Shown here: piece after piece, positions 32,381 to 63,767 of the stretch
How positions within the stretch are numbered: position 1 is the stretch's first letter
Layout: every line of letters starts with the position of its first letter
Source: Alphaproteobacteria bacterium
GTDB lineage: Bacteria; Pseudomonadota; Alphaproteobacteria; Sphingomonadales; Emcibacteraceae
DNA: 64,000 nt
Reading direction: 5' to 3'
NCBI GenBank assembly: GCA_030428615.1
Contig: JAUIDN010000007.1
Coordinates: 62,001 to 126,000 of the forward strand
Position numbers and translations under genes: made by a program
Notes under the pieces: generated by a model
Database searches by the model: none
What the model saw: the letters and a program-made list of their open reading frames with translations, nothing else
Told to the model about the DNA's origin: nothing

Positions 32381-32406
32381 GTCTTTGACCAAATAGCATG
32401 ACCTGT

Positions 32407-32436
32407 TTGACACATGGCTTGTTTCCTGCTTATTGT
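32407..32436 (+). promoter_or_regulatory. Candidate promoter of the penicillin-acylase-family gene
   Basis: TTGACA at 32407-32412 and TATTGT at 32431-32436 (18-base spacer) lie 31 bases before the start codon at 32467, downstream of the terminator. Confidence 0.45.
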
Positions 32437-32466
32437 CTAGTCTGTAATAAATATTGGGAGAATGTT

Positions 32467-34680: not shown

Positions 34681-34722
34681 AGCGATGAAAAGATGGATAT
34701 TCTTTACTATGGGGATTGGAAA

Positions 34723-42675: not shown

Positions 42676-42703
42676 TATGGTATAAAAAATGAGAGGGACT
42701 TAG

Positions 42704-45502: not shown

Positions 45503-45516
45503 ACCGGAACGTGCTC

Positions 45517-47262
45517 ATGACCATCAATATAGAAGAAATTGAAGATTATCTGGACATCAGGATACCCACATCAGATAAACTGATCCTTGAGAGTAGCCGA
45601 CGGGTAACAGGCCCCGGACTGCTATGGGAGAAACCGGGAGCGATTCTGGATGTTTTTTCAGATCATTTTGATAAGCAACAGATAATTGACATTTGGTTGG
45701 AAGAAATTAACCGCGTTCTCAGGGCTATCGACTGGCAGGGAAGCGAAACCAAAACCCGTATTTTTGATACGGGGGTTAATCTGGCTATATCGGCGACGAT
45801 CGATCTTCTATATTCCGCCGTATTTGTCGTTGAAACCAGTTGGCAGTTAACGGCGTGCAGACTGCTGGGCGAGCAGGCCGACGATTTTGAAAAACTCATA
45901 AATGATTTAAAAAAAGTCATTTCAATGGAGCAGAACCCGCCGGTTCTGGCGTTGCAGCGGGTAGCGGAAAGTAAAAACATAGACGTATTATGGGACGATG
46001 ATTACGTATCGCTCGGTCATGGGAAAGGGTCGCAAAAATGGGGAATAAATGAAATCCCATCACCGGATGATGTTGATTGGGGTGCGCTCCATAATGTGCC
46101 CGTCGCGCTTATAACCGGAACCAATGGAAAATCGACCAGCGTTCGCCTTTCTACGGCTATCGCGGAAGCGGCGGGACTTGTTGGTGGGTCAACGTCAACA
46201 GATTACGTGAAACTTGGGCATGATGTTCTTGATTATGGGGATTATTCCGGACCGGGTGGTGCCCGAATGCTGCTTCGCGATAAACGACTTGAAATAGCGT
46301 TTTTGGAAGTAGCACGCGGCGGTATTTTACGGCGTGGATTACCATTAAGGCAGGCGTCAGGCGCATTGGTTACGAATATTGCCGCTGATCATCTTGGGGA
46401 ATATGGAATAAATACCGTGGAACATCTCGCGGATGCAAAATTCGCCGTCGCCAGGACACTCTCAAACGATGGTATCCTTGTACTTAACGCGGATGATCCT
46501 TTGGTGGTGAATAATGGCCTAAAATCACCAAACACTATTTGCTGGTATTCGTTGGATGCAGCTAACAAACAGGTTCGAAGCGCCATTGGTAAGGGAGCAC
46601 TTTGTTGTTGGTTTGAAAATGAAAAAATCCATTATTTTGATGGGGAGTCTGTATCTCTTTCAATTCCGGTTGCTGATATCCCGATCACAATGGGCGGCGC
46701 AGCGAGATTTAACATTCACAATTCCATGGGGGCGTTATGCCTTGCCAAGGCGATGGGCATAAAGAATGCCGCGATCATCAGGGGACTAACGACATTCACG
46801 AGCACACCGCAAGACAATCCGGGCAGGTGTAACGAATTTCTGGTACGGGGCGCACGCGTATTCGTTGATTTTGCGCATAACCCTCACTCAATAAAGGCCG
46901 TCGCAGATATGCTGGGTAATTTGCCATCTGCCAAGAAGTATTTATTGATCGGACAAGCGGGGGACAGGTCCGATCAGGATATTCGTGATCTGACCAAAGG
47001 AGCGCTTCAGTTTAAACCGGATGTGGTGGTTACGATGGATATGGAGGATTATTTACGGGGACGTGAGCGCGGTGAAGCCGCTGCCATCATCCGGGAAGAA
47101 TGCTTGAACGCGGGGATTAAAGCCGAAAATGTACCCCACTTCTCATCACCATCTGAAGGAGCCCGCTATATCATTGACCGACTACGGGACGGTGATCTTG
47201 CCTTGCTTCTCGCACTTGCGGAACGTGACAAGGTTTTTAAAATGCTTGAAGAGGCATCTTAG
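45517..47262 (+). CDS. CphA-like Mur ligase lacking the ATP-grasp domain
   Basis: A 581-residue paralogue of CphA. Residues 1-~175 resemble the CphA N-domain, ending in GHGKGSQKW (167-175), which matches GHGKHQKRI in CphA. Only ~26 residues later comes the Mur-ligase P-loop GTNGKS at 201-206, whereas CphA has ~300 residues (the ATP-grasp domain) between these points. The Mur part is intact (DFAHNPHSIKAV, GQAGDRSDQD). ATG 45517 lies behind CCGGAA; GTG 45511 is the alternative. It may add Arg or another amino acid to the polymer, or assist CphA. It is the third gene of the cph operon. Confidence 0.85.
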   Translation: MTINIEEIEDYLDIRIPTSDKLILESSRRVTGPGLLWEKPGAILDVFSDHFDKQQIIDIWLEEINRVLRAIDWQGSETKTRIFDTGVNLAISATIDLLYSAVFVVETSWQLTACRLLGEQADDFEKLINDLKKVISMEQNPPVLALQRVAESKNIDVLWDDDYVSLGHGKGSQKWGINEIPSPDDVDWGALHNVPVALITGTNGKSTSVRLSTAIAEAAGLVGGSTSTDYVKLGHDVLDYGDYSGPGGARMLLRDKRLEIAFLEVARGGILRRGLPLRQASGALVTNIAADHLGEYGINTVEHLADAKFAVARTLSNDGILVLNADDPLVVNNGLKSPNTICWYSLDAANKQVRSAIGKGALCCWFENEKIHYFDGESVSLSIPVADIPITMGGAARFNIHNSMGALCLAKAMGIKNAAIIRGLTTFTSTPQDNPGRCNEFLVRGARVFVDFAHNPHSIKAVADMLGNLPSAKKYLLIGQAGDRSDQDIRDLTKGALQFKPDVVVTMDMEDYLRGRERGEAAAIIREECLNAGIKAENVPHFSSPSEGARYIIDRLRDGDLALLLALAERDKVFKMLEEAS

Positions 47263-48149
47263 CGGCAAGGCGCGAACGTGGTTGATACAAGTTCACTGCT
47301 GCTTGATACAGCCGCGCGCTTCATACCATCAGAATTAAATGCCATGGCAATTTCGCCTTTCTCATTTACCGCAATTAATCCGCCGTCGCCACCGAGGCGC
47401 TCAACTTCATCAAGCATGCGCCAAAGTGCTTGCTCCAAGGTGTCACCCGCCAGCTTATAACCGTTTGCAGCGGTCAGCGCGCCACCAGCACGGATAAAAT
47501 ACTCACCAGTTCCGGTGCATGAGAGGGCAATTTTCTGGTCAGCCCATGTGCCAATGCCGATAATCGGTGTGTCGCCGACGCGCCCGGCGGGTTTTCCGAA
47601 AACGCCGCCAGTTGACGTTGCTGCCGCCAGATTCCCGTGAATATCCAACGCAACGGCGCCAACGGTGCCGTGCATCATATCGTCTTGCTCAATATCTTCC
47701 TGCGAAACCCCGATGGGAAGAACGTAATATTCCGATGGGTTATCAATCCCTTCCAAACCTTGCTCTTTTGCAAAAGAGTTGGCCCCTTCGCCTGTTATCA
47801 TCACACAGGATGAGTTTGAGAGCACGGCTCTGGCGACCGTGATCGGGCTCACAACATCGCGGATGGCGGAAACAGCCCCGGCATTTTGCGTGCTTCCATC
47901 CATAATGCTTGCGTCCAGTTCCACCTGCCCTGCGGTATTTGGGGCGGATCCTTTCCCGGCGACATAAAGCCCGGAAATTTCCATTTCAGCCACCATTTTT
48001 TCCACAACATCAAGCGAAGAAATACCTGTTTTTAGCATTTCCTCTCCCCGCTTTGCGAGGTCGGCCAAATGAGCTTCGGTCACGCTGTAATCTTCGCCAG
48101 GTTTCGGGCCGGCACCGCCATGAAGTGCTAGTGCATAACGATCCGCCAT
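47259..48149 (-). CDS. iaaA: Isoaspartyl peptidase/L-asparaginase
   Basis: A 296-residue Ntn hydrolase of the plant-type asparaginase family. The precursor should self-cleave before Thr162 in MMHGTVGAVALD, giving alpha and beta subunits; GRVGDTPIIGIGTWAD and CTGTGEYFIRAG are the substrate-binding motifs. It hydrolyses beta-aspartyl dipeptides, here most simply beta-Asp-Arg from the cyanophycinase, yielding free Asp and Arg. Convergent with the cph operon (stop codons overlap by four bases) yet on the opposite strand, so it needs a separate promoter. Confidence 0.93.
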   Translation of the reverse strand: MADRYALALHGGAGPKPGEDYSVTEAHLADLAKRGEEMLKTGISSLDVVEKMVAEMEISGLYVAGKGSAPNTAGQVELDASIMDGSTQNAGAVSAIRDVVSPITVARAVLSNSSCVMITGEGANSFAKEQGLEGIDNPSEYYVLPIGVSQEDIEQDDMMHGTVGAVALDIHGNLAAATSTGGVFGKPAGRVGDTPIIGIGTWADQKIALSCTGTGEYFIRAGGALTAANGYKLAGDTLEQALWRMLDEVERLGGDGGLIAVNEKGEIAMAFNSDGMKRAAVSSSSELVSTTFAPCR

Positions 48150-50634: not shown

Positions 50635-51033
50635 TTAATTATCTTCAACCACGGCGGTTGTTTCAATTTCTATCTTGGCGGCATCTTCCATCAAGGCTGA
50701 AACTTCAACACAGGCCATAACCGGATAGTTTTTCCCAATAATCTCGCGGTAAATGGCGCCCATTTCTTTCAGGCTCGAAAGATATTCTCTTTTGTCCGTA
50801 ATATACCACGTCATACGCACAATATGTTCCGGCCCGGCCCCGTCCTGACTAAGAACAGCAACAATATTTTCCAATGTTTTTCGAAATTGATCGGTAAGTT
50901 TATCGCTTTCAAATTCTTCCTGTTCGTTCCATCCGACCAAACCTGCCACATAAATAGTCCGGCCTGCGCCAACGCTTATGGCGTTTGAATATCCTTTTGG
51001 GCGTGGCCAGCCTTCCGGCAACAAATGCTTCAT
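50635..51033 (-). CDS. Rid-family (YjgF) protein, lacks the RidA arginine
   Basis: A 132-residue trimer-forming protein. The fold markers are present (TIYVAGLVGW, GAGPEHIVRMTWYITD, IEIETTAVV), but in the CVEVSALMED segment the position of the catalytic Arg of RidA (CVEVARLP) is Ala, so ordinary imine deaminase activity is unlikely; it belongs to a Rid1-7-like subgroup. AAAGGA precedes the start. It is the last gene of the minus-strand catabolic operon. Rid-type proteins accompany anthranilate-CoA pathways and may act on enamine or imine intermediates formed when the amino group is lost. Confidence 0.88.
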   Translation of the reverse strand: MKHLLPEGWPRPKGYSNAISVGAGRTIYVAGLVGWNEQEEFESDKLTDQFRKTLENIVAVLSQDGAGPEHIVRMTWYITDKREYLSSLKEMGAIYREIIGKNYPVMACVEVSALMEDAAKIEIETTAVVEDN

Positions 51034-51038
51034 ATAGA

Positions 51039-52217
51039 CTATCCTTTAAATTCGTTCAAAAGCTGCTTGGCGATCACGACTTTTTGTACTTCTGTCGCGC
51101 CCTCATAAATTCTGAGCGCACGTATTTCCCGATAGAGTTCTTCGACTTTCACGCCTTTGACAACACCCATACCGCCGAAAATCTGGATGGCCTTGTCAAT
51201 GACAATCTGCGCACATTCTGTGGCGTGCATTTTTGCCATTGCTGCTTCGCGGGTCACACGGCGGTCTTTGGTATCGCGGGTCCAGGCGGCGCGGTAAACA
51301 AGCAGTGCGCTGCTGTCCACATCGAGCGCACATTCAGCCAGCATCGCCTGCACCAGTTGCAGGTTATGAAGCGGGGCCCCAAATAAGTGACGGTTGTTTG
51401 TACGACCTATGGCTTCTGATAGGGCGCGCCGCGCAAAGCCAAGTGCCGCCGCACCGACCGTCGATCTGAATATGTCAAGTGTCGCCATCGCTGCTTTGAA
51501 GCCCGAACCCGATGGACCCAGCAATTTTTCTTTGGCTATTTTGCAGTTTCTAAATGCCAGTGTGGCAAGGGGGTGTGGGGCGATGACTTCTATCCGTTCC
51601 GTGATCTCCAACCCGGGGGTTTCGGCATCAACAATCAATGCGGATAGTCCCTTGGCCCCTGGGCCTTCACCTGTTCGGGCGAACACAACATAATAGTCGG
51701 CTATGCCGCCATTTGAAATAAATGTTTTGGACCCGTTAAGAATGTAATGATCGCCATTATTCACCGCTGTCGTGGTCATATTGGCGACATCTGATCCGCT
51801 GTCCAGTTCGGTGAGCGCAAATGCCGCCATTTTCTTGCCACCCGCTACGTCAGGGAGATAGTTTTCTTTTATAACTTCGTCGCCGAAAAGCGTTATGGTC
51901 CCGCTTCCCAAACCCTGCATTGCAAAAACAAAATCAGCAAGTCCGTCATAACGCGCCAGAGCTTCCCTTATGATACAAAGCGATCTGACATCAAGATCGT
52001 CAAAAACGCCCCCATACGCTTTTGGAATCACATATTTAAGCCACCCATCCTTCGCGAGTAATTCAAGGATCACCTTACACGCCCGATCAACATCCGAATG
52101 ATCAATGTGATTTAAATTTTTCTCACACCATTTATCAAGACCCGCAGCAAGTTTTCGGTGGTGATCCTCAAAAAACGGCCATTCAAGGTATGTTTGATCA
52201 ATTTTATTTATGCTCAT
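51039..52217 (-). CDS. Acyl-CoA dehydrogenase
   Basis: A 392-residue flavoenzyme. Motifs: [15 protein letters not shown] (FAD/substrate loop), [47 protein letters not shown], where Glu of YEGA(T/S) is the catalytic-base position of the short-chain group. FAD-dependent alpha,beta-dehydrogenation of a CoA ester is expected. Sits between RidA-like (5 bases downstream) and enoyl-CoA hydratase (3 bases upstream), so one transcript. Likely acts on a ring-opened or alicyclic acyl-CoA. Confidence 0.92.
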
Positions 52218-52220
52218 TAA

Positions 52221-53036
52221 TCAATCGCCCTCAAACGTCGGTTTTTCTTTATTCACAAATGCATGGTATGCGCGTTCGAAATCTTTGGTCTGCATGCAGA
52301 TGGCCTGCGCCTGTGCTTCTGCCTCAATCGCCGCGTCAAGGCCCATATTCCATTCCTGATTAAGCTGGTTTTTGGTAATGCCGTTGGCAAATGTTGGCCC
52401 CGCTGCTATTTTTTTGGCTATTTCCTTCGCTGTTTCGATGAGCTGGTCAGCATTAACCAGTTTATTGAAATAACCCCATCGTTCGCCTTCTTCGCCTGAC
52501 ATGGTGCGCCCAAGGAACAGTAACTCCGCCGCCCGCCCCTGTCCGATAATGCGCGGAAGGATCGCACAGGCCCCCATGTCACAGCCCGCAAGGCCAACTT
52601 TATTGAATAAAAAGGCCGTTTTACATTCGGGTGTCCCAATCCGAAGATCACTTGCCATCGGAATAATGGCACCGGCCCCAACCGATATACCATCAACGGC
52701 GGCGATAACCGGTTGCGGACAGGCACGGATCGCCTTGACCAGATCGCCTGTCATTCTTGTAAAATCAAGAAGCCCCGTCATATCCATCTTGACCAATGGT
52801 CCGATGATATCGTGCACATCGCCGCCTGATGAGAAGTTGCCGCCGTTGGGGGCAAAAATAACGGCTTTTACATCTTTGATATATACAAGGTTTCTGAATG
52901 TATCCCTTAGTTCCGCGTAACTTTCAAATGTAAGCGGGTTTTTTCGCTCCGGCCGGTCAAGGGATATGGTGGCAACACCATCATCGAAGGACCATCTGAA
53001 ATGATCTGGGTTAAACGTTTCTGGGTTCATTTTCAT
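52221..53036 (-). CDS. Enoyl-CoA hydratase/isomerase family protein
   Basis: A 271-residue crotonase. FSSGGDVHD and [23 protein letters not shown] carry the oxyanion-hole pattern; the catalytic-Glu region [18 protein letters not shown] has Asp or Gly where the hydratase Glu pair lies, so it may be an isomerase, hydrolase or ring-opening member instead of a standard hydratase. Start at 53036, or 53030 which has better spacing to AAAGGGA. Third-to-last step gene of the island on the minus strand. Confidence 0.88.
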
Positions 53037-53041
53037 TCCCT

Positions 53042-53791
53042 TTAATTGCCGTCTATGACAACGGCGGTGCCATTTACATCATCGCTTGCGGGATCGCATA
53101 ATTTTATGACTTCTGACGCTATTTCCTCCGGTTCCACAAGTCTTTTCTGGTTTGCGATTTTAAGAATTTCTTTTAGTGCTTCTTCCCGGGTGCGGCCTGT
53201 TTTTTCCATTATATTCTTAATACTGTCCGTGACAATATCTGTATTTGTAAATGCTGGGCAAATCGCGTTTATGGTTGTCGTGCCGTTCGTTAGCTCAAGT
53301 GCCAGTGATTTGGTCAGCCCGATAACACCATGTTTCGCGGCGGAATACGCGCTGGTATAGGCGCAACCCTCAAGACCGGCGATACTGGCAATGTTAATAA
53401 CCCTTCCGTGATCCATAGACTTAATTTGTTCTAAAACCGCTTGTGTCATAAGAAAAACACTATCAAGATTTACGGCAAGAGTATCTTTCCATGCCTGAAA
53501 ACCGGTTTTGTGAAAGGGGGCCGAATAGGCCGCACCCGCATTGTTAACAAGGATCGAAATGGGTAAGGTTTCAGCCGCTTTTTTAACCGCAATGGCGACA
53601 CTCTTCTGATCAGTGACATCGACACTGATAGCATGTATCCGATCATTTTCACTTGCTGCCTTGTCAAGTCTGTCTTTATTACGGCCCATGATTGTGACCG
53701 TTGCGCCAACGTTCACTAATGCCCGTGTTATCGCAAGGCCAATACCGGACCCGCCTCCGGTTACCACGGCATGTTTTCCGCTTAATAACAT
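53042..53791 (-). CDS. SDR-family 3-hydroxyacyl-CoA dehydrogenase-like oxidoreductase
   Basis: A 249-residue short-chain dehydrogenase: TGGGSGIG (cofactor loop), NNAG, and the S-Y-K triad in ...[10 protein letters not shown]-terminal FYD-type end (GTAVVIDGN) is classical. Likely oxidises a 3-hydroxyacyl- or alicyclic hydroxy-CoA. First gene of the minus-strand operon; the divergent promoter region upstream contains TTACATGTAA. Confidence 0.92.
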
Positions 53792-53943: not shown

Positions 53944-54723
53944 ATGGGTAATGTATTAAATGATCTGGCAGACGGTCTGCTTGACGGTAGCGTAAAGGTC
54001 GTTGATCTGACACAGGTATTGGGTCCGGATACGCCGATAATTCATCTTCCGGAAGAAATAGCTGTGAACTCACCGCCCTTCTCTATGAAGGAAATTTCAA
54101 AGTATGATGATAATGGCCCGGCTTGGTATTGGAACACAATCACATTGGGGGAACATACGGGAACCCATTTTGATGCGCCCATTCACTGGGTGAGTGGCAA
54201 GGATTATGCGGATGGCGGTTGCGATACGTTACCGGCGCAAAATCTGGTTGGCCCGGCATGCGTTATTGATTGCAGTGTCGAGACGGCGGCTGACCCGGAC
54301 TACCTGCTTACGGCCGACGGCGTAAAAGAATGGGAAGCGAAGCACGGCGATATTAAGGCCGGCTCATGGGTTTTGATGCGCACTGACTGGCTGAAACTTG
54401 TGGGGCTTGAGAATTTTCTAAATGCCGATGACACGGGGCCTCATTCACCGGGGCCGACGGACTGCTGTATTAATTATCTGATTGAAAAAGATGTGATGGG
54501 CTGGGGTGTTGAAACCGTTGGTACTGATGCCGGGCAGGCGGCCATGTTTGAAACCCCGTTTCCTGCTCATTCCATGATGCATGGTGCTAATAAATATGGC
54601 CTTGCAAGTCTTACCAATCTTGATCAATTACCGCCGACGGGGGCAATTATTATTGTCCCGCCGCTAAAAATTGAAAACGGCTCAGGTAGCCCGCTTCGGG
54701 TGCTGGCCATGACGGCGGCCTGA
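53944..54723 (+). CDS. Cyclase-family metallohydrolase, candidate isatin hydrolase
   Basis: A 259-residue hydrolase of the KynB/isatin hydrolase (cyclase) superfamily. The metal motif is GEHTGTHFDAPIHW (His-x3-His-x-Asp, Mn binding). N-terminal VVDLTQVLGPDTPIIHLP and the ISKYDDNGPAWYWN segment resemble isatin hydrolases more than kynurenine formamidases (~210 residues). Isatin hydrolase opens isatin to isatinate; kynurenine formamidase is the alternative. ATG 53944 follows AAGGGAGAAA. First gene of a plus-strand operon with IorAB (gap 7 bases). Confidence 0.8.
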   Translation: MGNVLNDLADGLLDGSVKVVDLTQVLGPDTPIIHLPEEIAVNSPPFSMKEISKYDDNGPAWYWNTITLGEHTGTHFDAPIHWVSGKDYADGGCDTLPAQNLVGPACVIDCSVETAADPDYLLTADGVKEWEAKHGDIKAGSWVLMRTDWLKLVGLENFLNADDTGPHSPGPTDCCINYLIEKDVMGWGVETVGTDAGQAAMFETPFPAHSMMHGANKYGLASLTNLDQLPPTGAIIIVPPLKIENGSGSPLRVLAMTAA

Positions 54724-54730
54724 CTAATTT

Positions 54731-56860
54731 ATGGCAGAACGATCTTTCAAGCAGGAAGTTGAAAAGCTGAGGCTCGCAGATGGAGATGAGTTTCGCGGTG
54801 AGGGTATCCTCGCGGTGACAAAAGCCCTGCTTCAGGCAGGTGTTTCATATGTCGGCGGGTATCAGGGCTCACCCGTTTCACATTTGATGGATGTTCTTGC
54901 CGATGCGGAAGATATCATGAATGAACTGAATGTTCATTTTGAAACGTCTGCAAGTGAGGCAACGGCCGCTGCCATGCTTGCGGCGTCCGTCAATTACCCG
55001 CTCCGTGGCGCGGTAACTTGGAAATCAACGGTTGGCACCAATGTTGCCAGCGATGCGCTTGCAAACGTATCGTCCGGTGGGGTGACGGGGGGTGCTCTGG
55101 TTATCATCGGTGAGGATTATGGTGAAGGTTCCTCAATTATGCAGGAACGCAGTCATGCTTTTGCGATGAAATCACAAATCTGGCTACTTGACCCGCGTCC
55201 CAACCTGACATCAATTGTGAATGCCGTCGAGACCGGGTTTGAATTATCGGAAGCATCAAATACACCGGTGATGCTGGAGCTTCGCATTCGCGCCTGTCAC
55301 GTTTATGGTCGATTTACAACGAAAGACAACAAGCGCCCTGAATTTACCCTTCAGGATGCAATGGAAAACCCGAACCGTGATACATCGCGGATTGTACTGC
55401 CACCGGCAAACTACTTGCATGAACATGAAAAACTAAAAGAACGTTGGCCGGCGGCGATTGAATTCATTAAATCACGAAAGCTTAATGAATTTCTTGGCGC
55501 TGAAACCGGGGAGATCGGCATCATTGTTCAGGGCGGGCTTTATAACAGCCTTATTCGTGCGATGGAGCTTCTGGGGCTAAGTGATGCCTTCGGCGATGCC
55601 AGTATCCCGATTTACGTGATGAATGTCACATATCCGGTGGTTGATACAGAAATTCTGGAATTTATGAAAGATAAGAAAGCTGTTCTCTTAGTGGAAGAAG
55701 GTCACCCCAATTATATCGAACAGGAATTGAATACCATTTTAAGGCAGGCGGGATGTGAAACCATTCTGAATGGCAAGGATCTGATCACCGATATCGGCGA
55801 ATATACCAGCGATGTTATTAAGAAGGGGGTTGAAAAATTTGCCCGCGCCAATGGTCTGCTCGGTAACAGTAGGTTTGAAACCGCAAAGTTTACACCGATT
55901 GACGTGCCGATGCGACCAGCCGGGTTTTGCACAGGATGTCCTGAACGCCCCATGTTCACAGCGATCCAGCTTGTGGAGCAGGATATTGGCCCGTTTCACG
56001 TCAGCGCCGATATCGGGTGTCATCTATTTTCTATTTTACCGCCCTTCAACATCGGCAATACGACGATGGGGTACGGTCTTGGTTGGGCGGGGGCTTCCGC
56101 TTTTAACAAGAATGCGCAAAAAAGAACTTTATCCATTATGGGGGACGGCGGATTCTGGCATAATGGTCTTACCTCCGGCGTTGGTAATGCGGTTTTTAAT
56201 CAGACCGATAATGTGTTGATGATTGTTGACAATAATTATTCGGCCGCAACCGGCGGACAGGATTTGCTTTCCTCCAAAGGGGAACATGAAAAACGAAGCA
56301 CGCAGCATGATATTGCTGAAGCGGTCCGCGGGGTTGGTATAAACTGGGTCAAAACGGTCCGTACCTATGATCTGGTTGAAATGCACCGAACGCTATTGGA
56401 TGCCATGACAACAAAAGTCAGGGGCCCAAAGGTAATTGTGGCACAGGGAGAATGTCAGCTCAATCGTCAAAGGCGGGTGAAACCGAAGTTTAAAAGGGAT
56501 GTAAAGGCGGGCAAGCGTGTTGAACGCGATCGTTTCTACGTTGATAGCGATACCTGCACCGGGGATCATAGCTGTATCCGCATGTCGGGTTGCCCATCAC
56601 TTACCTTAAAAGAAAATCCCGATCCGTTAAAATCTGATCCGGTGGCCTATGTGGATAATAGCTGCGTGGGCTGCGGGCATTGCGGCGAAGTGGCGCATGC
56701 GGCGGTGCTTTGCCCTTCCTTTTCGAAAGTGAGCCTTGTTTATAACCCCAATCTTTGGGACAGGATTAAAGATACCATGCGCGGGGCGGTCATCGGATGG
56801 ATGCAATCACGTGCTGAAAGAAAACGCCGAAACCGGCTTCAAAAAGCGGGGCTCTTATGA
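54731..56860 (+). CDS. Indolepyruvate-ferredoxin-oxidoreductase-type alpha subunit (IorA-like)
   Basis: A 709-residue TPP- and Fe-S-dependent 2-oxoacid oxidoreductase subunit. Pyrimidine domain ~residues 25-250; TPP-binding GDGGFWHNGLTSG...DNNYSAATGGQ (~470-520); two C-terminal clusters, CTGDHSCIRMSGCP and CVGCGHCGEVAHAAVLCP (~605-660). Substrates are aryl-2-oxoacids with CoA, producing aryl-acyl-CoA, CO2 and reduced ferredoxin. Indolepyruvate is the textbook substrate, but genes around deal with anthraniloyl-CoA, so isatinate (2-aminophenylglyoxylate) is an attractive alternative. Stop overlaps the beta subunit start (ATGA). Confidence 0.9.
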   Translation: MAERSFKQEVEKLRLADGDEFRGEGILAVTKALLQAGVSYVGGYQGSPVSHLMDVLADAEDIMNELNVHFETSASEATAAAMLAASVNYPLRGAVTWKSTVGTNVASDALANVSSGGVTGGALVIIGEDYGEGSSIMQERSHAFAMKSQIWLLDPRPNLTSIVNAVETGFELSEASNTPVMLELRIRACHVYGRFTTKDNKRPEFTLQDAMENPNRDTSRIVLPPANYLHEHEKLKERWPAAIEFIKSRKLNEFLGAETGEIGIIVQGGLYNSLIRAMELLGLSDAFGDASIPIYVMNVTYPVVDTEILEFMKDKKAVLLVEEGHPNYIEQELNTILRQAGCETILNGKDLITDIGEYTSDVIKKGVEKFARANGLLGNSRFETAKFTPIDVPMRPAGFCTGCPERPMFTAIQLVEQDIGPFHVSADIGCHLFSILPPFNIGNTTMGYGLGWAGASAFNKNAQKRTLSIMGDGGFWHNGLTSGVGNAVFNQTDNVLMIVDNNYSAATGGQDLLSSKGEHEKRSTQHDIAEAVRGVGINWVKTVRTYDLVEMHRTLLDAMTTKVRGPKVIVAQGECQLNRQRRVKPKFKRDVKAGKRVERDRFYVDSDTCTGDHSCIRMSGCPSLTLKENPDPLKSDPVAYVDNSCVGCGHCGEVAHAAVLCPSFSKVSLVYNPNLWDRIKDTMRGAVIGWMQSRAERKRRNRLQKAGLL

Positions 56861-58380
56861 CCAAACAACGTATTTCCATAGCAATTGCTGCGCTTGGCGG
56901 ACAGGGTGGTGGTGTTTTAAGTAACTGGATCGTCGACTTGGCGGAAGATAATGGATATCTTGCACAATATACGGCAATTGCCGGTGTTGCGCAGCGCACG
57001 GGGGCTACAATTTACGCAATTGAGCTTTTCCCGGAAAATGAGATCACAAAAAATGGTAAGGAACCGGTTCTCGCGTTGATGCCGGTATCAGGTGATGTCG
57101 ATATCTGTATCGCATCTGAACTCATGGAAGCGGGACGTGCGGTAAACCGCGGCATTGTTACCCCTGACAAAACCACGCTGATCACATCCGACCACCGTGT
57201 TTATGCCATTGAAGAAAAAGAAAATCTCAGCGATGGGCGCTTTAAGGATAATGAAGTGCGCGAAGCAATTCAGGACGCTGCGAAGGAACTGATCATTTTT
57301 GATATGGAAGAACTGGTGCTTCAGTCATCCAGTGTCATTTCAAGTGTTCTTTTTGGGGCGCTTGCAGGGTCGGGGACGCTTCCGTTTGCACGGGATGCAT
57401 TTGAAAACACCATAAAAAAATCCGGACGTGCCGTTGAAACGAATCTGGCCGGATTTGAACTTGGATTTGATGCGGCAACAGGAAAAAATCCCCCCGATCA
57501 GGTGCCGTGTGGAGAGACTATAACCGTTCGGGATGAGGACCTTCTGGACAGGATTGAAAGCTTTCCAGCCGAAGCAAGGGCGATCATAACATACGGTGTT
57601 CACAGGTTGGTTGATTATCAGGATGCGGATTACGCCAAACTTTATCTTGAAAGGCTTGAAAGCCTAAACGGGGCACCCGGCGATCTTTTAGGCGAAGTGG
57701 CACGCCATCTTGCCCTTTGGATGGGGTTTGAAGACGTTATAAGGGTCGCCGACCTTAAAACGAGGGCGGAGCGAACAGAAAAAATCGCCACGGAAATTCG
57801 CGCCGCAGACAATCAGATTTGGTACAGTCATGATTATTTCCATCCGCGTTTTGATGAATTTACCGATATTCTACCAAATACTTTAGGCAATTGGATGAAT
57901 GAATCAAAAATCATGAAAATGTTACTTTCGCCACTATTTTCCAAAGGACGCATCATAAGACCCAAAACAATATCCGGGTTCATGCTTTTAAGGTCGATTG
58001 CCGGTATGCGATTTATGCGGCAAGCGTCACGAAGATACCATATGGAAAACAAGCGCATCATGGCGTGGCTTGAACTGATCAGAAAATATAAGGATGGCAA
58101 TCTGGAATTGGCGATGGAAATCGCATTATGCCCCCGCATCATTAAAGGCTACGGTGAGACCCACGCGCGCGGCATTAACAGATTTTCCCGCATCATGTCT
58201 TTCATAAACATCGATGAAAATGATCCGGAACTTTCTAAGAAAACAGCGGAACTTAGGGACGCAGCGTTGGCCGACGCGAAGGGAACGGCATTTAACACAT
58301 CACTTGAAAATTATCAGGCAAAGGATTTGATTTCCAATGACGGAAAAAACCGTGAATTTAAATGGGCCGGATCATCCTGA
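56857..58380 (+). CDS. IorB-like beta subunit with large C-terminal extension
   Basis: A 507-residue partner of the IorA-like protein. Residues ~5-195: the gamma-type domain (ALGGQGGGVLSNWIVDLAE and IAGVAQRTGATIYA), forming the CoA/TPP-side interface. Residues ~200-507: an extension absent from archaeal IorB (~200 residues), helical, like the DUF6537-type tail found in aerobic proteobacterial relatives. Overlaps the upstream gene by four bases and the MarR gene by 44. Confidence 0.88.
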   Translation: MTKQRISIAIAALGGQGGGVLSNWIVDLAEDNGYLAQYTAIAGVAQRTGATIYAIELFPENEITKNGKEPVLALMPVSGDVDICIASELMEAGRAVNRGIVTPDKTTLITSDHRVYAIEEKENLSDGRFKDNEVREAIQDAAKELIIFDMEELVLQSSSVISSVLFGALAGSGTLPFARDAFENTIKKSGRAVETNLAGFELGFDAATGKNPPDQVPCGETITVRDEDLLDRIESFPAEARAIITYGVHRLVDYQDADYAKLYLERLESLNGAPGDLLGEVARHLALWMGFEDVIRVADLKTRAERTEKIATEIRAADNQIWYSHDYFHPRFDEFTDILPNTLGNWMNESKIMKMLLSPLFSKGRIIRPKTISGFMLLRSIAGMRFMRQASRRYHMENKRIMAWLELIRKYKDGNLELAMEIALCPRIIKGYGETHARGINRFSRIMSFINIDENDPELSKKTAELRDAALADAKGTAFNTSLENYQAKDLISNDGKNREFKWAGSS

Positions 58381-58828
58381 TTTTATTCTGGATGATTACC
58401 CGCTCTATAACCTGAACAGGACGTCCGCAACCTATATCGATGCGATGTCAAAGGCCCTTAAGTCCGTTGATATGGACCAGCCAAGCTGGAGGGTTCTTAT
58501 GCTGCTCGGCGATAAAAATCCAAGTACGGTGGGTGAGCTTTCCCGGCGATCAGTAACCAAAATATCAACCATCACCCGCATTCTTATGCGCATGGAAAAA
58601 GAAGGGCTTGTGGTTCGAAAGCCCTATCCCGAAGATAACCGCGTGATTGAGGTCTTTATTCTGGAAAAGGGGCAGAAAGTTCTGGGTGATCTTCGCGGAC
58701 TGGCAAACGAGGTTTATAAATCGGCATTTGACGGGATTTCCAATGAAGATATAATATCATTTACCGAAACTTTGATGAAGGTAAGACAAAATCTCAGCGA
58801 AATCAGGCAATTAAGTGAAATCAGTTAA
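58337..58828 (+). CDS. MarR-family transcriptional regulator 1
   Basis: A 163-residue winged-helix protein: STVGELSRRSVTKISTITRILMRMEKEGLVVRKPYPEDNR is the classic recognition helix and wing. The first 44 bases overlap the IorB-like gene, so the regulator is translationally coupled to the enzyme. No better downstream start precedes the fold. Two bases separate it from the ligase gene. Aryl-CoA thioesters are known inducers for MarR regulators of aromatic catabolism (BadR, HbaR type), so anthraniloyl-CoA is a likely ligand. Confidence 0.93.
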   Translation: MTEKTVNLNGPDHPDFILDDYPLYNLNRTSATYIDAMSKALKSVDMDQPSWRVLMLLGDKNPSTVGELSRRSVTKISTITRILMRMEKEGLVVRKPYPEDNRVIEVFILEKGQKVLGDLRGLANEVYKSAFDGISNEDIISFTETLMKVRQNLSEIRQLSEIS

Positions 58829-58830
58829 TT

Positions 58831-60405
58831 ATGACCAATAGCGCTCACATCGATACATTTGCTAAAGACAGACTGCCCCCAAAGTCGCAGTGGCCGGAGT
58901 TTTTATTTGGTGAAGATGTGCCCGCCTATCCGGATTATCTTAATGCGGCGGAAGAACTTCTGCAAAACGGTTTTATCGACAGACCCGCGGTGCTTATGGA
59001 TGATGTCGTCTGGACCTATCGCGATCTGAACAAAAAAGCCAACCAGATAGCCACTGTCCTTACGGAAGATTACGGACTTGTCCCGGGAAACCGGGTTTTG
59101 CTTCGTGGCAATAATAGTCCGATGCTCGCGGCACTTTGGTACGGTGTTTTAAAAGCCGGCGGCATCGTCATTACCACCATGACCATGCTCAGACAAAAGG
59201 AACTTGATGCGATCATTGATGTGGGCAGGCCCGATATACTCATTATTGAAAATGATCTTCCAATTGATGTTCTTGATAGCTGCCGGGATGCCGCGCGGGT
59301 CGTTGCCGGGTATGATGAAGTTATCGGGAAAATGGCGATAAAAAGCGGCGAGTTTGATGCCGTTAGAACCGCTTCCGATGATGTGGCAATGCTTGCCTTT
59401 ACGTCCGGTACGACGGGACTGCCGAAGGCGACGATGCATTTTCACCGTGACATCATGGCAATGGCAGATAGTTTTGCTAAATTCACCTTAAAGCCAACAT
59501 GTGATGATGTTTTTTGTGGCTCTCCGCCGCTTGCGTTTACATTTGGCCTTGGGGGGCTTCTTGTTTTTCCGGCTCGTTTTGGGGCCAGCGTGGTTTATTT
59601 TCATGGTGCGGGGCCGGATGTTCTTCTGGATGTAATTGAAAAATATAAGGTCACGACTTTATTTACCGCCCCAACCGCCTATAAGGTTCTCAGTCAGAAA
59701 GCGTCGGGGCGTGATCTTTCAAGCCTAAAGACCTGCGTATCAGCGGGAGAAAATTTACCCCTTTCCATATCGGACCAGTTTCATGATGAAACCGGCATAA
59801 GGCTTATTGACGGGATCGGGGCCACGGAAATGATCCATGTATTTATTTCCGCTTCGGGTGATGACATCAGGCCCGGTTCCACCGGTAAAGCGGTTCCCGG
59901 CTACAAAGCCGAAATATGGGATGATGAAAATAATCCGCTCCCCGCGGGCAAAACCGGAAGGCTGGCGATTAGGGGGCCGACAGGGTGCAGGTACCTTAAT
60001 GGTGATCGACAAGGGGAATATGTCATTAACGGCTGGAACGTGACGGGCGATATATTTCGTCAGGATGAAGACGGGTATTTCTGGTTTGTCGCGCGCGGCG
60101 ATGACATTATTATTTCGGCGGGTTACAATATCGCTGCCCCCGAAGTTGAACAGGCGGTATTGGCGCATGATGCTGTATCTGAATGTGCGGTTATTGGGGT
60201 GCCGGACCCGGATCGCGGGACAATCGTAAAAGCATTCATCGTTTTGAAAGACGGTGTAAATGGTGATGAAGAATTGGTGAAAGATATTCAGATTTTTGTT
60301 AAATCAACCGTCGCACCCTATAAATATCCACGTGCGATAGAATTTCTGGAAAGTCTGCCAAAATCGGCGACCGGCAAGTTACTCAGAAAAAATTTGAAAC
60401 GCTAA
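58831..60405 (+). CDS. 2-aminobenzoate-CoA ligase-type AMP-forming ligase
   Basis: A 524-residue adenylating enzyme of the benzoate-CoA ligase group. A3/P-loop TSGTTGLPKA (~191-200), GIGATEMIHVFISA (A5), GWNVTGDIF and GDDIIISAGYNIAAPEVE (A7-A8), KSATGKLLRKNL with the terminal catalytic Lys (A10). Opening PPKSQWPEF is typical for 2-aminobenzoate-CoA ligases. Makes anthraniloyl-CoA from anthranilate, ATP and CoA. Last gene of the plus-strand operon; convergent with MarR 2 (stop codons overlap). Confidence 0.85.
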   Translation: MTNSAHIDTFAKDRLPPKSQWPEFLFGEDVPAYPDYLNAAEELLQNGFIDRPAVLMDDVVWTYRDLNKKANQIATVLTEDYGLVPGNRVLLRGNNSPMLAALWYGVLKAGGIVITTMTMLRQKELDAIIDVGRPDILIIENDLPIDVLDSCRDAARVVAGYDEVIGKMAIKSGEFDAVRTASDDVAMLAFTSGTTGLPKATMHFHRDIMAMADSFAKFTLKPTCDDVFCGSPPLAFTFGLGGLLVFPARFGASVVYFHGAGPDVLLDVIEKYKVTTLFTAPTAYKVLSQKASGRDLSSLKTCVSAGENLPLSISDQFHDETGIRLIDGIGATEMIHVFISASGDDIRPGSTGKAVPGYKAEIWDDENNPLPAGKTGRLAIRGPTGCRYLNGDRQGEYVINGWNVTGDIFRQDEDGYFWFVARGDDIIISAGYNIAAPEVEQAVLAHDAVSECAVIGVPDPDRGTIVKAFIVLKDGVNGDEELVKDIQIFVKSTVAPYKYPRAIEFLESLPKSATGKLLRKNLKR

Positions 60406-60857
60406 TCAAGCGAATTGCGGGCAGTATTCAGAAATGAAGTAAACTCCTTCATATGATCAATGTCGATTGCTTCGAGCGCCTGTTCAATCCAAAGCGCGTT
60501 ATTTTCGGCCATTTCTTCAAAAAGCGCTTTCCCCTTATCTGAACTTCTGACGATGTAGCTGCGGCGATCATCTTGCTTCGCTTCTTTTGCGATTAGACCA
60601 TCCTTCTGCATGCGGTCAAGAAGGCCTGTAATATTACCTTTTGATGCGATCAGCCGTGCGGCAAGTTCGCCGACGGTGAGCCCATTTTGTTTTTCCCGGT
60701 CAAGCTGTGAAAGAACATCAAAGCGGGAAATATTCTGTCCGTAATTCTGACGGAGTTTGTCATCAATTATTTGTTCAAGCTTGTTTGAATAACGTAGAAG
60801 TTCAATCCAAAGTTTGAGACTTTGTTTTTGTCTTTCTGTATATTTCCCATCGGACAT
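60402..60857 (-). CDS. MarR-family transcriptional regulator 2
   Basis: A 151-residue winged-helix protein: LTVGELAARLIASKGNITGLLDRMQKDGLIAKEAKQDDRRSY. An in-frame TTG at 60881 is possible, but ATG 60857 follows GGGAG at a usable distance. Divergent from the 2-aminobenzoyl-CoA monooxygenase/reductase gene; the TTACACGTAA palindrome lies between. Probably represses this promoter and itself. Confidence 0.93.
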   Translation of the reverse strand: MSDGKYTERQKQSLKLWIELLRYSNKLEQIIDDKLRQNYGQNISRFDVLSQLDREKQNGLTVGELAARLIASKGNITGLLDRMQKDGLIAKEAKQDDRRSYIVRSSDKGKALFEEMAENNALWIEQALEAIDIDHMKEFTSFLNTARNSLD

Positions 60858-60926
60858 ATTTTCTAATCTCCCTAATGACAAACACTATATCCGGGAGCGG
60901 TGAAACTTCAAGCACACAAAAATAGT

Positions 60927-60936: not shown

Positions 60937-60979
60937 GATAATTTTGATTAGGCTATTTCCGACATAGAGGAGAACATTG

Positions 60980-63325
60980 ATGAAAATATCGGTGATAGGG
61001 GGCGGGCCCGGCGGCCTTTACTTCGCTTTACTCACAAAAAAGGCACGACCCGACTGGGATATTGAGGTATTTGAACAGAACCGTCCCGATGACACCTTCG
61101 GGTTTGGTGTTGTATTTTCTGATGACACATTGGATGAATTTCTCAGCCGTGATCCGGAATCCTATGAGCTTATCCGTGATGAATTTGCTTATTGGGATGA
61201 TATTATCATCCGTTACAAAGGTGAAGAAGTGCGCTGCAGCGGCAACGGTTTTGCCGGCTGTTCAAGGCTTAATCTTCTTAAAATTCTGCAGAATCGTTGC
61301 CGGGATCTTGGTGTAAAAATCACGTTTGGCAAACGGATTGACGTTGAAAATCTTGAAACGGATTTTGCATCATCTGACATGATCCTTGCCAGTGACGGGA
61401 TCGGGTCTTCAATCCGCGAACATTATAAAGACTATTTTGATCCCACCATAAGCATAAAATCAAATCGTTTTACCTGGATGGGCTCAAAACGAAAAGTTGA
61501 GGATTTTACCTATTTTTTCAAGGACACGAAATACGGTCCGATATGCGCCCATACTTATCAATATGATGCTCACACCTCAACCTGGGTATTTGAAATGTCT
61601 GATGAGTGCTGGCAAAAATGGCAATTTGAAGAATTTGATGAACAGGGGTCCGCGAATAAATTACAGGAAATATTTGCGGAAGAACTTGAAGGGCACGACC
61701 TGATCATCAACAGGTCCATGTGGCGGCAATTTCCGCGTATATATTGCAACAACTGGTATCACAAAAATATCGCGATTCTCGGTGACGCCAAAGCGTCAGC
61801 GCATTTTTCAATTGGCTCGGGAACGAAACTGGCGATGGAATGCGCAATCGCGCTTTCCGATGCCATGATTGAACATGGTGAAAGCTCCATTGAAAATGCC
61901 TTTAAGGCGTACGTCGAAGAACGTGAAACGCCGGTACAGATACTGCAACATAATGCGGACGTGTCGATGGCGTGGTTTGAACATATGGACCGCTCATGGG
62001 ATATGGATTTGATGCAATTTGCGGCGGTTGTGATGTGCCGCTCAAAATCCGTCACTTATGATAATCTGATTTTACGGGACGCAGGTTTTGCTGAAAAACT
62101 GGATACGGCATGGTACGAACGATACTACCGCGAAAGCGGTTATGACTACCGTGAAAGCCGCCCTACTCCGATGTTCACAAAATTTAAGCTCGGCGGACTT
62201 GAGCTTCGAAACAGGGTTGTGATGTCGCCAATGGCGCAATATTCGGCCGATGAAAATGGTAATCTGACCGACTGGCATTTTATTCATTACGGCGGTGCTG
62301 CGCGCGGCGGAATGGCGCTTATGTATGTTGAAATGACTTGTCCCTCCCCGGAAGCAAGAATTACGCGGGGGTGTCCGGGCCTCTGGACCGATGAGCATGA
62401 AGCACAATGGAAGCGAATTGTTGATTTTATCCATGAAAACACAGAAACCAAAATATGTATGCAGCTTGGTCATGCCGGACGGAAAGGATCAACGCAACGG
62501 GGTTGGGAAGAAATGGATTATCCGATTGATGATCCGGGCAAAAACTGGCCCCTTCTTTCCGCGTCACCAATTCCCTATTTTGACGAAGTTTCCCAGACGC
62601 CAAAAGCCATGGACCGAAATGATATGGACAAAGTCATAAAGGACTTTAAGGCGGCGACAACACGTGCTGACCGTGCAGGGTTTGATATGATCGAAATGCA
62701 CGCCGCACATGGATATCTGATTGCATCTTTCCTGTCGCCCCTTACAAATATTCGCTCAGATGAATATGGCGGATCAATTGAAAACAGAATGCGTTTTCCG
62801 CTGGAAGTGTTTGCTGCGATGCGGGATGCCTGGCCCCAGGAAAAGCCGATGTCGATTCGAATTTCTGCCTGCGACTGGAAAGAAGGCGGCATAAGCGAAG
62901 AAGACACCTTCTATATTGCCAATGCGTTTAAAGATGCGGGTGTGGATCTGATTGATGTATCGGCGGGGCAAACCGTACCGGATCAAAAGCCGGTTTACGG
63001 CCGGATGTTCCAGCTTGGTTTTGCCGAAGCGATCCGCAACGTCCCAAAGGTGGCGACTATGGCGGTGGGAAATATTACTGAACCCGCACAGGTAAATACA
63101 ATTCTTCATACGCGCCGCGCTGATCTTGTCGCCATTGGCAGGCCGCATCTGTGGAACCCGTTCTTCTGCCGTGAAGCTGCGGCCTGGTATGGAGTGTCAC
63201 TGGATGAAGGGGACTGGGAAAAACAATATCTTGCTGGAAAAGCGCAGGCCTATAGCTTAAAAGAGAAAGCACGGCAACAACAGTTGGAATGGCAACAAAA
63301 GGCAAAGCCAAGCCGTCATAAATAA
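60980..63325 (+). CDS. 2-aminobenzoyl-CoA monooxygenase/reductase (bifunctional)
   Basis: A 781-residue two-domain flavoenzyme. Residues 1-~390: FAD monooxygenase of the salicylate/salicylyl-CoA hydroxylase type with GGGPGG at 7-12 and GDAKASAHFSIGSGTKLAME. Residues ~398-781: old yellow enzyme domain (TKFKLGGLELRNRVVMSPM, MCMQLGHAGRKGS-like motif, IGRPHLWNPFF). This fusion is the hallmark of the Azoarcus evansii enzyme that attacks anthraniloyl-CoA using O2 and NADPH and reduces the hydroxylated ring to 2-amino-5-oxocyclohex-1-ene-carboxyl-CoA. ATG 60980 follows GAGGAGA; an in-frame TTG lies three bases before. Databases often label it salicylyl-CoA 5-hydroxylase/oxidoreductase. First gene of the second plus-strand operon. 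Confidence 0.9.
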   Translation: MKISVIGGGPGGLYFALLTKKARPDWDIEVFEQNRPDDTFGFGVVFSDDTLDEFLSRDPESYELIRDEFAYWDDIIIRYKGEEVRCSGNGFAGCSRLNLLKILQNRCRDLGVKITFGKRIDVENLETDFASSDMILASDGIGSSIREHYKDYFDPTISIKSNRFTWMGSKRKVEDFTYFFKDTKYGPICAHTYQYDAHTSTWVFEMSDECWQKWQFEEFDEQGSANKLQEIFAEELEGHDLIINRSMWRQFPRIYCNNWYHKNIAILGDAKASAHFSIGSGTKLAMECAIALSDAMIEHGESSIENAFKAYVEERETPVQILQHNADVSMAWFEHMDRSWDMDLMQFAAVVMCRSKSVTYDNLILRDAGFAEKLDTAWYERYYRESGYDYRESRPTPMFTKFKLGGLELRNRVVMSPMAQYSADENGNLTDWHFIHYGGAARGGMALMYVEMTCPSPEARITRGCPGLWTDEHEAQWKRIVDFIHENTETKICMQLGHAGRKGSTQRGWEEMDYPIDDPGKNWPLLSASPIPYFDEVSQTPKAMDRNDMDKVIKDFKAATTRADRAGFDMIEMHAAHGYLIASFLSPLTNIRSDEYGGSIENRMRFPLEVFAAMRDAWPQEKPMSIRISACDWKEGGISEEDTFYIANAFKDAGVDLIDVSAGQTVPDQKPVYGRMFQLGFAEAIRNVPKVATMAVGNITEPAQVNTILHTRRADLVAIGRPHLWNPFFCREAAAWYGVSLDEGDWEKQYLAGKAQAYSLKEKARQQQLEWQQKAKPSRHK

Positions 63326-63350: not shown

Positions 63351-63767
63351 ATGGCCACATTCAAGGTGACAAGAAAAATCCGTTTCGGGCAAACCGATGC
63401 GGCAGGGATTACATATTACCCCCGGCTCGTGGAAATGATTAATGATATTGTCGAAGATTTTTTCGCGGATGCCGTCAAGTTCAGCTATAAGGAAATGATC
63501 GTCGAAACTGACTATGGGGTGCCCACGGTTAATTTGAATGTAACCTTTAAGCGGCCTGCGGAACTTGAAGATTATGTTGACTGGTACCTGAACGTGACGA
63601 AAATCGGCAGGTCTTCCTTCACCGTTGAAATAGACGCCAAAGTCGGCGATCTGGACATCATCAATGCGATCGTGACGCTTGCATATATTAAGGGAAAAGG
63701 CGCGGATATGAAAAGTCACCCACTTCCCGAGCATGTGAAAGAAGTCATGAAAGAATATCTGAAATAA
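63351..63767 (+). CDS. 4-hydroxybenzoyl-CoA-type hotdog thioesterase
   Basis: A 138-residue hotdog-fold protein. FGQTDAAGITYYPRLVEM is the catalytic loop (Asp) of the 4HBT family; the remainder has alternating strand and helix of the single hotdog. It releases aryl or ring-derived acids from CoA, either as a safety valve or to drain a dead-end CoA ester. AAGGATCAGGG-type spacing precedes the ATG. Same operon as the monooxygenase/reductase; a similar gene accompanies the Azoarcus anthranilate cluster. Confidence 0.9.
   Translation: MATFKVTRKIRFGQTDAAGITYYPRLVEMINDIVEDFFADAVKFSYKEMIVETDYGVPTVNLNVTFKRPAELEDYVDWYLNVTKIGRSSFTVEIDAKVGDLDIINAIVTLAYIKGKGADMKSHPLPEHVKEVMKEYLK

Follow-up and report, generated by a model that had tools for sequence, protein, structure and literature searches.

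Why would a gene pair annotated as an indolepyruvate ferredoxin oxidoreductase (IOR) directly follow an isatin hydrolase-like gene, inside a cluster for anthraniloyl-coenzyme A (anthraniloyl-CoA, or 2-aminobenzoyl-CoA)? The locus lies in a stretch of 64,000 nucleotides, here called the window, from an alphaproteobacterium of the Emcibacteraceae (positions 62,001 to 126,000 of contig JAUIDN010000007.1, assembly GCA_030428615.1), whose genome is a 3.4-Mb draft in 41 contigs that is 98.8% complete. An earlier note on this DNA had proposed that the pair, IorA and IorB, converts isatinate directly to anthraniloyl-CoA. The gene pair and its coordinates were confirmed: all three open reading frames are intact, 7 bases (54724-54730) separate the hydrolase gene from that of IorA, and the IorA and IorB genes overlap by 4 bases. 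The surroundings are also of the anthraniloyl-CoA type described there, with a 2-aminobenzoyl-CoA monooxygenase/reductase (ABM), an AMP-ligase, a short-chain dehydrogenase/reductase (SDR), an enoyl-CoA hydratase, an acyl-CoA dehydrogenase, a RidA protein, and a thioesterase (Table 1). The closest named relative of the locus, from an Emcibacteraceae metagenome-assembled genome (MAG; locus L085), has an unchanged gene order and an IorA that is 88% identical. Our best reading is that the pair, which belongs to the IadA/IadB (IadAB) proteins of auxin degradation loci, is probably a CoA-acylating isatinate oxidoreductase; the gene context for this is strong, and the chemistry is what that context would imply.

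In this proposal, isatin hydrolase would open isatin to isatinate (2-aminophenylglyoxylate), and IadA and IadB would decarboxylate isatinate oxidatively on thiamine pyrophosphate (TPP). Two electrons would leave through the Fe-S domain of the pair to some acceptor, and the acyl group would pass to CoA to give anthraniloyl-CoA, the substrate of the adjacent ABM. The substrate, the CoA product, the electron acceptor, and the source of isatin for the window module are those that we infer.

The cyclase is an isatin hydrolase by its published signature

Compared with solved structures by phmmer, the cyclase matched isatin hydrolases best, with E values from 8e-103 (Labrenzia isatin hydrolase B, 4j0n) to 5e-90, whereas kynurenine formamidases reached 3e-5 at best. 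The accessible text of PMC6117287 gives the Mn site (HxGTHxD) with GLAS or GLQC as the signature of isatin hydrolase activity and WxW or FxW as the pocket motif. The window protein carries WYW at 61, HTGTHFDAP at 71, GTDAGQ at 193, PFPAH at 205, and GLAS at 219, with the Asp-His dyad made up of the Asp in GTDAGQ and the His in PFPAH. Among hydrolase homologues in IadA loci, the Mn site and the WxW pocket were found in all 62 measured, and GLAS or GLQC in 54 of the 62; one more homologue was too short to be counted. By this signature the cyclase is an isatin hydrolase, in agreement with the likeness seen earlier. The assignment that would have undone the proposal, an N-formylkynurenine formamidase, was rejected: the cyclase has the isatin hydrolase signature and scores 29.8 bits on TIGR03035, whose cut-off is 223, and a second cyclase of the same genome scores higher, at 69.8 bits.

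The pair is IadA/IadB and is distinct from canonical indolepyruvate oxidoreductase

IorA scores 299 bits on TIGR03336, under the curated cut-off of 651 for the alpha subunit of canonical indolepyruvate oxidoreductase, and IorB scores 610 bits on NF006179, over the cut-off of 348. The TPP and gamma domains that mark a 2-oxoacid:acceptor oxidoreductase are present in the pair. Across 398 genomes of the phylum, IorA homologues with at least 53% identity occurred in at least 29 genomes; the remaining matches listed showed 30% identity or less, save for a short fragment at 32%, which leaves the range from 32% to 53% empty. A scan of species genomes returned at least 592 stretches matching the IorA-type family, possibly several per gene. 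Seven Fe-S cysteines and an aspartate, D612, were invariant in an alignment of IadA-type sequences (112/112). At the place of D612, the second ligand of cluster motif 1, canonical alpha subunits had cysteine in 7 of 7 rows compared (L065, L066, and L265-L269), and from this place the aspartate is predicted to be an Fe-S cluster ligand. Two fused aerobic IOR-type proteins of 1,160 amino acids (aa) (L270 and L271) show CxxDxxC in the second cluster motif, while the aspartate of IadA is in the first; judging from these two proteins, a swap of one cysteine for aspartate seems to have occurred in each of two aerobic lineages, in different clusters. Both fused proteins also have YRGSP, similar to the YQG(A/S)P of the window family, which was dropped as a candidate signature for isatinate.

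In a quick tree, IadA of iad loci and the window protein formed one clade apart from canonical IOR (branch 100, with an outgroup of two rows). A clade of 7 sequences (support 97), always without the hydrolase, stood apart from the main clade (105 sequences, support 85) that holds the window protein, although the split between the two carries a long-branch warning and support inside is uneven. A structure model (pLDDT 71, pTM 0.55) gave fold matches that mix 2-oxoacid:ferredoxin oxidoreductases (8ys5, 5c4i) with TPP decarboxylases, so the model favors neither oxidative nor plain decarboxylation. On sequence criteria, the window pair is distinct from canonical indolepyruvate oxidoreductase.

By homology, the pair is IadA and IadB of the published iad loci, and the hydrolase matches IadI. 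The iad gene letters were reportedly coined by Nascimento in 2021. According to the accessible text of PMC9613470, IadA and IadB are annotated as indolepyruvate ferredoxin oxidoreductase and are exclusive markers of iad-like loci, one of two aerobic bacterial types of auxin degradation; iadA is gene 72 and iadC gene 70, and iadA is first in the auxin operon, adjoining the regulator iadR. Such loci are known in Variovorax, Achromobacter, and Bradyrhizobium (PMC9613470 and PMC12633357, accessible parts). The presence of an IorAB pair in an aromatic cluster, pointed out earlier, is thus real but not new, having been published as IadA/IadB. No reaction for IadA or IadB was found in the accessible parts of PMC9613470, PMC10374108, PMC11630574, and PMC12633357, and we recognized no description of a step from isatinate to anthraniloyl-CoA among the open-licence papers that literature searches listed.

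Co-occurrence with isatin hydrolase and ABM across distant bacteria

For the survey of the 398 genomes, identity cut-offs were at least 59% for IadA (called close), 53% for the hydrolase, 45% for the ligase, and 42% over nearly the whole protein for ABM. Genome lists were compiled by hand from the matches listed, with the ABM of G019 counted from two pieces, and the gene content of IadA loci was read by tblastn with a protein panel. Among the matches listed, close IadA occurred in 25 genomes, isatin hydrolase in 25, and both in 23. The hydrolase was therefore present in 23 of 25 close-IadA genomes versus 2 of 373 others (Fisher 7e-33), and full-length ABM in 71 genomes that include all 25 with close IadA (Fisher 3e-21), both tests ignoring relatedness. 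The exceptions among these matches were G327 and G237, with the hydrolase but no close IadA, and G019 and G262, where the reverse holds. The G327 locus (L195), where the hydrolase gene sits between an ABM-type ligase and ABM, is a naturally occurring example of a hydrolase that functions in the absence of the pair.

The hydrolase gene was directly upstream of IorA in 18 loci and directly downstream of IorB in 3, and lay on other contigs in G225, G296, and G319. At 19 of 112 IadA loci the flank was too short for a hydrolase-negative call, leaving 93 callable. The same association was seen in Nocardioides and Pimelobacter (L109, L157, L161) as well as in two MAGs of Acidobacteriota (L139, L152), and a tie of the IorAB pair to isatin hydrolase and ABM across distant bacteria is supported.

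Is the ABM-type ligase dispensable where IadAB is present?

Formation of anthraniloyl-CoA by IadAB would make the ligase dispensable in ABM genomes that carry the pair. Among the matches listed, a ligase of the window type was found in 66 of the 398 genomes, with ABM in 66/66, and five ABM genomes were without it (G055, G296, G349, G376, and G241). The survey scored three ligase candidates per genome, and the five ligase-poor genomes and three others were rescored in full. G055, G296, G349, and G376, from four different families and each listed as 100% complete, have both IadAB and the hydrolase; on full rescoring, their best-scoring ligase match was 31 to 33% identical. In G349, IadAB and ABM are on different contigs. 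The fifth genome, G241, has neither IadAB nor the hydrolase, and a 35% ligase is in its operon.

Ligase position was compared at ABM loci where the sequence read reached 7 kb or more to either side. A ligase lay within 10 kb of ABM at 37 of 42 loci without close IadA (G099 being counted twice, and G191 and G231, whose only IadA is distant, being included), at 5 of 7 with IadA elsewhere, and at 4 of 11 with IadAB within 35 kb, one of the four being the window. Of the seven remaining IadAB-linked loci, six come from genomes with a ligase at some other site, and the seventh is from G055, which lacks it. When all IadAB-linked ABM loci are taken, including 5 of 16 for which fewer than 7 kb were read on at least one side, no ligase was within 10 kb in 12 of 16. 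At those 12 loci the ligase was wholly missing in G055, G296, and G376 only; it was on another contig or far away in G051, G071, G111, G123, G171, G265, and G274, about 36 kb off in G392, and beside a second ABM in G225. The idea of strict ligase loss with IadAB was softened, since most near-ligase-free IadAB-linked loci belong to genomes with a ligase elsewhere.

Twenty-four named genomes with IadAB (of 80 named loci) were hand-picked with a leaning to ligase-free loci. ABM was present in 23, and the ligase was missing in 13 of the 23, which is no frequency estimate given that choice; the hydrolase lies at the IadAB locus in 10 of the 13. Six isolates are among the 13, namely, Sphingomonas laterariae, S. 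flavalba, Novosphingobium sp. Leaf2, N. sediminicola, Agrobacterium sp. a22-2, and Nocardioides acrostichi; in the Agrobacterium isolate the hydrolase is not in the IadAB locus. In the organism of the window, the ligase would be a second entrance for free anthranilate arising from hydrolysis, leakage, uptake, or tryptophan, with both routes feeding ABM.

Metabolites of Variovorax and points against the proposed reaction

Two metabolite formulas from Variovorax can be set beside the proposed reaction. C8H7NO3 fits isatinic acid and C7H7NO fits 2-aminobenzaldehyde, both links being drawn here from the formulas. In the accessible text of PMC12633357, C8H7NO3 strongly accumulates only in strains that overexpress iadC-K2 with the host locus deleted, and its authors excluded N-formylanthranilate as its identity. 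By the gene numbers in the accessible part of PMC9613470, the iadC-K2 region leaves out iadA and iadB. A C7H7NO compound and anthranilic acid are also reported in Variovorax, with C7H7NO building up in strains without iadAB. In our own reading, the build-up of C8H7NO3 would result from the missing IadAB, and it is counted in favor of the proposal.

Several observations weigh against formation of anthraniloyl-CoA by IadAB. Overexpression alone could also explain the build-up of C8H7NO3 in the iadC-K2 strains, and an iadC-K2 strain restores anthranilic acid (PMC12633357, accessible part), which means that IadAB is not needed for free anthranilate in Variovorax. The window ligase is two genes downstream of IorB in the same run, and L085 keeps it too. 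Absence of the ligase from 4 of 25 close-IadA genomes versus 1 of 46 other ABM genomes is borderline (Fisher 0.049). Independent pairs on the ABM tree (73 rows) went the predicted way in 1 to 4 cases and the other way in 0 to 1 (means of 2.1 to 2.5 and 0.0 to 0.1, respectively), too few for significance. Nine of the 12 near-ligase-free loci belong to genomes with a ligase at another site, and a single genus group accounts for 6 of the 12. The hydrolase was not nearby at 30 of the 93 callable IadAB loci. Among the matches listed, G327 has the hydrolase, the ligase, and ABM without close IadA, and in G237 the hydrolase is present while close IadA and ABM are both missing.

Alternative functions for IadAB

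The alternative that survives best, although we judge it unlikely, is that IadAB acts on isatinate without forming a CoA ester, giving 2-aminobenzaldehyde or free anthranilate, and that the ligase then makes anthraniloyl-CoA. This would suit the ligase kept in the window and L085, as well as the C7H7NO compound and anthranilic acid of Variovorax. However, C7H7NO accumulates in strains built without iadAB, there are ABM genomes with the hydrolase and IadAB but without an ABM-type ligase, and the invariant Fe-S cysteines and D612 would be needless for a simple decarboxylase.

It is improbable that IadAB is instead an indolepyruvate (or arylpyruvate) oxidoreductase acting upstream, making or salvaging indoleacetate. 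The closest annotated families are so named, and iadA stands first in the auxin operon beside iadR, but the pair is set off from the other IOR-type matches listed by the gap in identity described above and by its cluster ligand and motifs, and IadAB is tied to the hydrolase and ABM even at loci without iadD. Nor was an iad route from indoleacetate found in the genome. A search for the iad Rieske oxygenase IadDE in the window genome gave a sole Ring_hydroxyl_A match, which resembles glycine-betaine monooxygenase (GbcA), and the same Pfam model does detect IadD of an Achromobacter iad locus (L134) as a control. An upstream indoleacetate route in this genome is thus unsupported, with only a GbcA-like Rieske alpha subunit found; the iad oxygenase appears to be absent, so that the hydrolase/IadAB module would stand alone there.

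Slightly more improbable again is the use of another aryl-2-oxoacid, such as phenylglyoxylate, with the hydrolase neighborhood being secondary. The 30 callable loci without a nearby hydrolase would be in line with it, and 13 of them have carboxylate importer homologues: a TRAP or TctC homologue lies within 5 kb of IorA at 13 of 30 hydrolase-negative loci versus 1 of 63 hydrolase-positive loci, the latter having one TctC match and zero TRAP matches. TRAP homologues (DctP or DctM) are at L047, L052, L098, L103, L112, L115, L125, L135, and L164, and TctC homologues at L056, L057, L058, and L121, with L112 having both; the matches in L052 (33% identity), L098 (35%), and L121 (39%) are weak, and the families were checked with Pfam in L112, L103, and L057. 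Against this alternative, the 7-member never-hydrolase clade is separate from the clade of the window, and close IadA is strongly tied to the hydrolase and ABM. The importers also count in favor of the main proposal, as they suggest that the shared substrate is an organic acid, made inside by the hydrolase or imported, the importer cargo being putative, and importer-linked IadAB pairs without hydrolase are possibly uptake routes for an aryl-2-oxoacid. At L103, a LysR gene is just upstream of an IadAB-type pair without hydrolase.

Least credible is a kynurenine formamidase in a cluster from tryptophan to anthranilate with IorAB incidental, for which there are two tryptophan-dioxygenase homologues in the genome and, 3.6 kb beyond the ABM gene, a gene weakly like kynureninase, but against which stand the isatin hydrolase signature, a TIGR03035 score below that of the second cyclase, and the finding of no kynureninase above its cut-off in the genome. 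The two tryptophan-2,3-dioxygenase homologues are on other contigs (L079, 9282-13677, and L078, 9039-9893, the L078 copy being over the cut-off), and the one in L079 adjoins a 3-hydroxyanthranilate dioxygenase gene and genes that by eye resemble the next steps.

A possible last step of auxin degradation

Oxidation of isatinate to anthraniloyl-CoA by IadAB remains the function that we favor. The direct step put forward in the earlier note gains from the identity of the hydrolase, the tie between IorAB, hydrolase, and ABM, and the four ligase-free ABM genomes; its further claim, that free anthranilate and ATP are bypassed, is not supported for this organism, where an ABM-type ligase is in the same gene run and is kept in the sister MAG. 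A broader proposal, which we advance tentatively and place just short of probable, is that IadAB is a dedicated, CoA-acylating isatinate:acceptor oxidoreductase that tolerates oxygen and has an Asp ligand in its Fe-S cluster. It would supply the missing last step both of the iad pathway and of isatin degradation that stands alone, in Proteobacteria, Actinomycetota, and Acidobacteriota, with anthraniloyl-CoA as the physiological product and the anthranilate of cultures as a by-product or leak. If this is true, the iad pathway would end not in anthranilate but in an energy-saving, membrane-trapped CoA ester that feeds ABM directly. Ferredoxin-type oxidoreductases are usually regarded as anaerobic, and one would here be placed in a widespread aerobic aromatic pathway. 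The anthraniloyl-CoA reading also suggests a straightforward assay for this family, whose current annotation is indolepyruvate oxidoreductase.

Gene content of the locus and its surroundings

Table 1 Features of the locus, in window coordinates
Feature	Coordinates	Strand	Details
Isatin hydrolase (IadI-type cyclase), Mn2+ amidohydrolase by signature	53944-54723	+	ATG start, TGA 54721-54723
IadA-type IorA, TPP-dependent 2-oxoacid oxidoreductase alpha, C-terminal Fe-S domain	54731-56860	+	TPP_enzyme_C; TIGR03336 299 bits
IadB-type IorB, POR gamma domain and DUF6537	56857-58380	+	PF01558, PF20169; NF006179 610 bits
MarR-family regulator, same gene run as IorB	58337-58828	+	PF01047
Aryl-CoA ligase of ABM-partner type, probable 2-aminobenzoate-CoA ligase	58831-60405	+	AMP-binding
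Second MarR-family regulator	60402-60881	-	PF12802
ABM, fused flavin monooxygenase/old yellow enzyme (OYE), probable 2-aminobenzoyl-CoA monooxygenase/reductase	60977-63325	+	PF00724; NF006101 999 bits
4HBT-type thioesterase	63351-63767	+	PF03061
SDR dehydrogenase of ABM cluster	53042-53791	-	PF00106; conserved ABM neighbor
Enoyl-CoA hydratase of ABM cluster	52221-53036	-	PF00378; conserved ABM neighbor
Acyl-CoA dehydrogenase of ABM cluster	51039-52217	-	PF00441; conserved ABM neighbor
RidA-family protein of ABM cluster	50635-51033	-	PF01042; conserved ABM neighbor

The first MarR gene overlaps that of IorB, and the ligase gene begins 2 bases after it in the same direction. The ABM protein has the fused flavin monooxygenase/OYE arrangement, with the OYE domain PF00724 at residues 399-734; its N-terminal FAD_binding_3 match has an E value of only 8e-4, under the cut-off of that model, and NF006101, a model named for salicylyl-CoA 5-hydroxylase/oxidoreductase, spans residues 2-770 under its cut-off of 1078. 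The window ABM would act on 2-aminobenzoyl-CoA.

Beyond the window end, downstream of the ABM cluster (L063, 17-6491), are genes for a FadB-like protein, a CDGSH and cupin protein, a class V aminotransferase with a weak resemblance to kynureninase, and a 785-aa transketolase-like TPP enzyme; L085 has open reading frames that resemble the FadB-like and the CDGSH and cupin proteins. Elsewhere in the window, a penicillin-amidase-family protein is followed by a beta-lactamase-fold protein (32398-36189), and a probable cyanophycin cluster (41824-48149) holds a cyanophycinase-like peptidase S51, a cyanophycin synthetase with Cyanophycin_syn, ATP-grasp, and Mur ligase domains, a second Mur-ligase protein, and an Asparaginase_2-family protein.

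Comparison with known systems

The window cyclase shares the Mn site, WxW pocket, GLAS, and Asp-His dyad with isatin hydrolases A and B of Labrenzia aggregata (4j0n, 5nna, 5nnb), and no signature difference from them was seen. With canonical IorAB (TIGR03336, TIGR03334), the window pair has in common the TPP domain, the POR gamma domain, and the C-terminal two-cluster domain. However, IorA is only about 28 to 29% identical to canonical indolepyruvate ferredoxin oxidoreductase, the window family has Asp for Cys in cluster motif 1, YQG(A/S)P for YPGTP, and CPE for CPH, and IorB is a protein of 507 aa with DUF6537, compared with 189 positions in the TIGR03334 model.

Phenylglyoxylate dehydrogenase of Aromatoleum/Azoarcus shares the chemistry proposed here, acting on an aryl-2-oxoacid; unlike the window, it belongs to an anaerobic system. 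The model organism of the 2-aminobenzoyl-CoA pathway is Azoarcus evansii. This pathway, named in the accessible part of PMC6221969, has ABM with a ligase and beta-oxidation-type neighbors, as in the window. Its known entry is the ligase acting on anthranilate, and for the window a second entry, from isatinate, is proposed.

The nearest parallels are the iad loci themselves. The window proteins share 63% identity with IadA and 56% with the IadI-type cyclase of the Achromobacter xylosoxidans iad locus L134, in which the gene order is IadA, IadB, reductase, Rieske alpha, small subunit, ligase, thiolase, IadH, cyclase, and SDR, where letters C to J were assigned here after the published order; iad loci also have MarR regulators. 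They contain iadDE, whereas the window genome seems to be without these genes, and in the window, unlike in the iad loci, the hydrolase and IorAB stand in one run with an ABM-type ligase, beside ABM.

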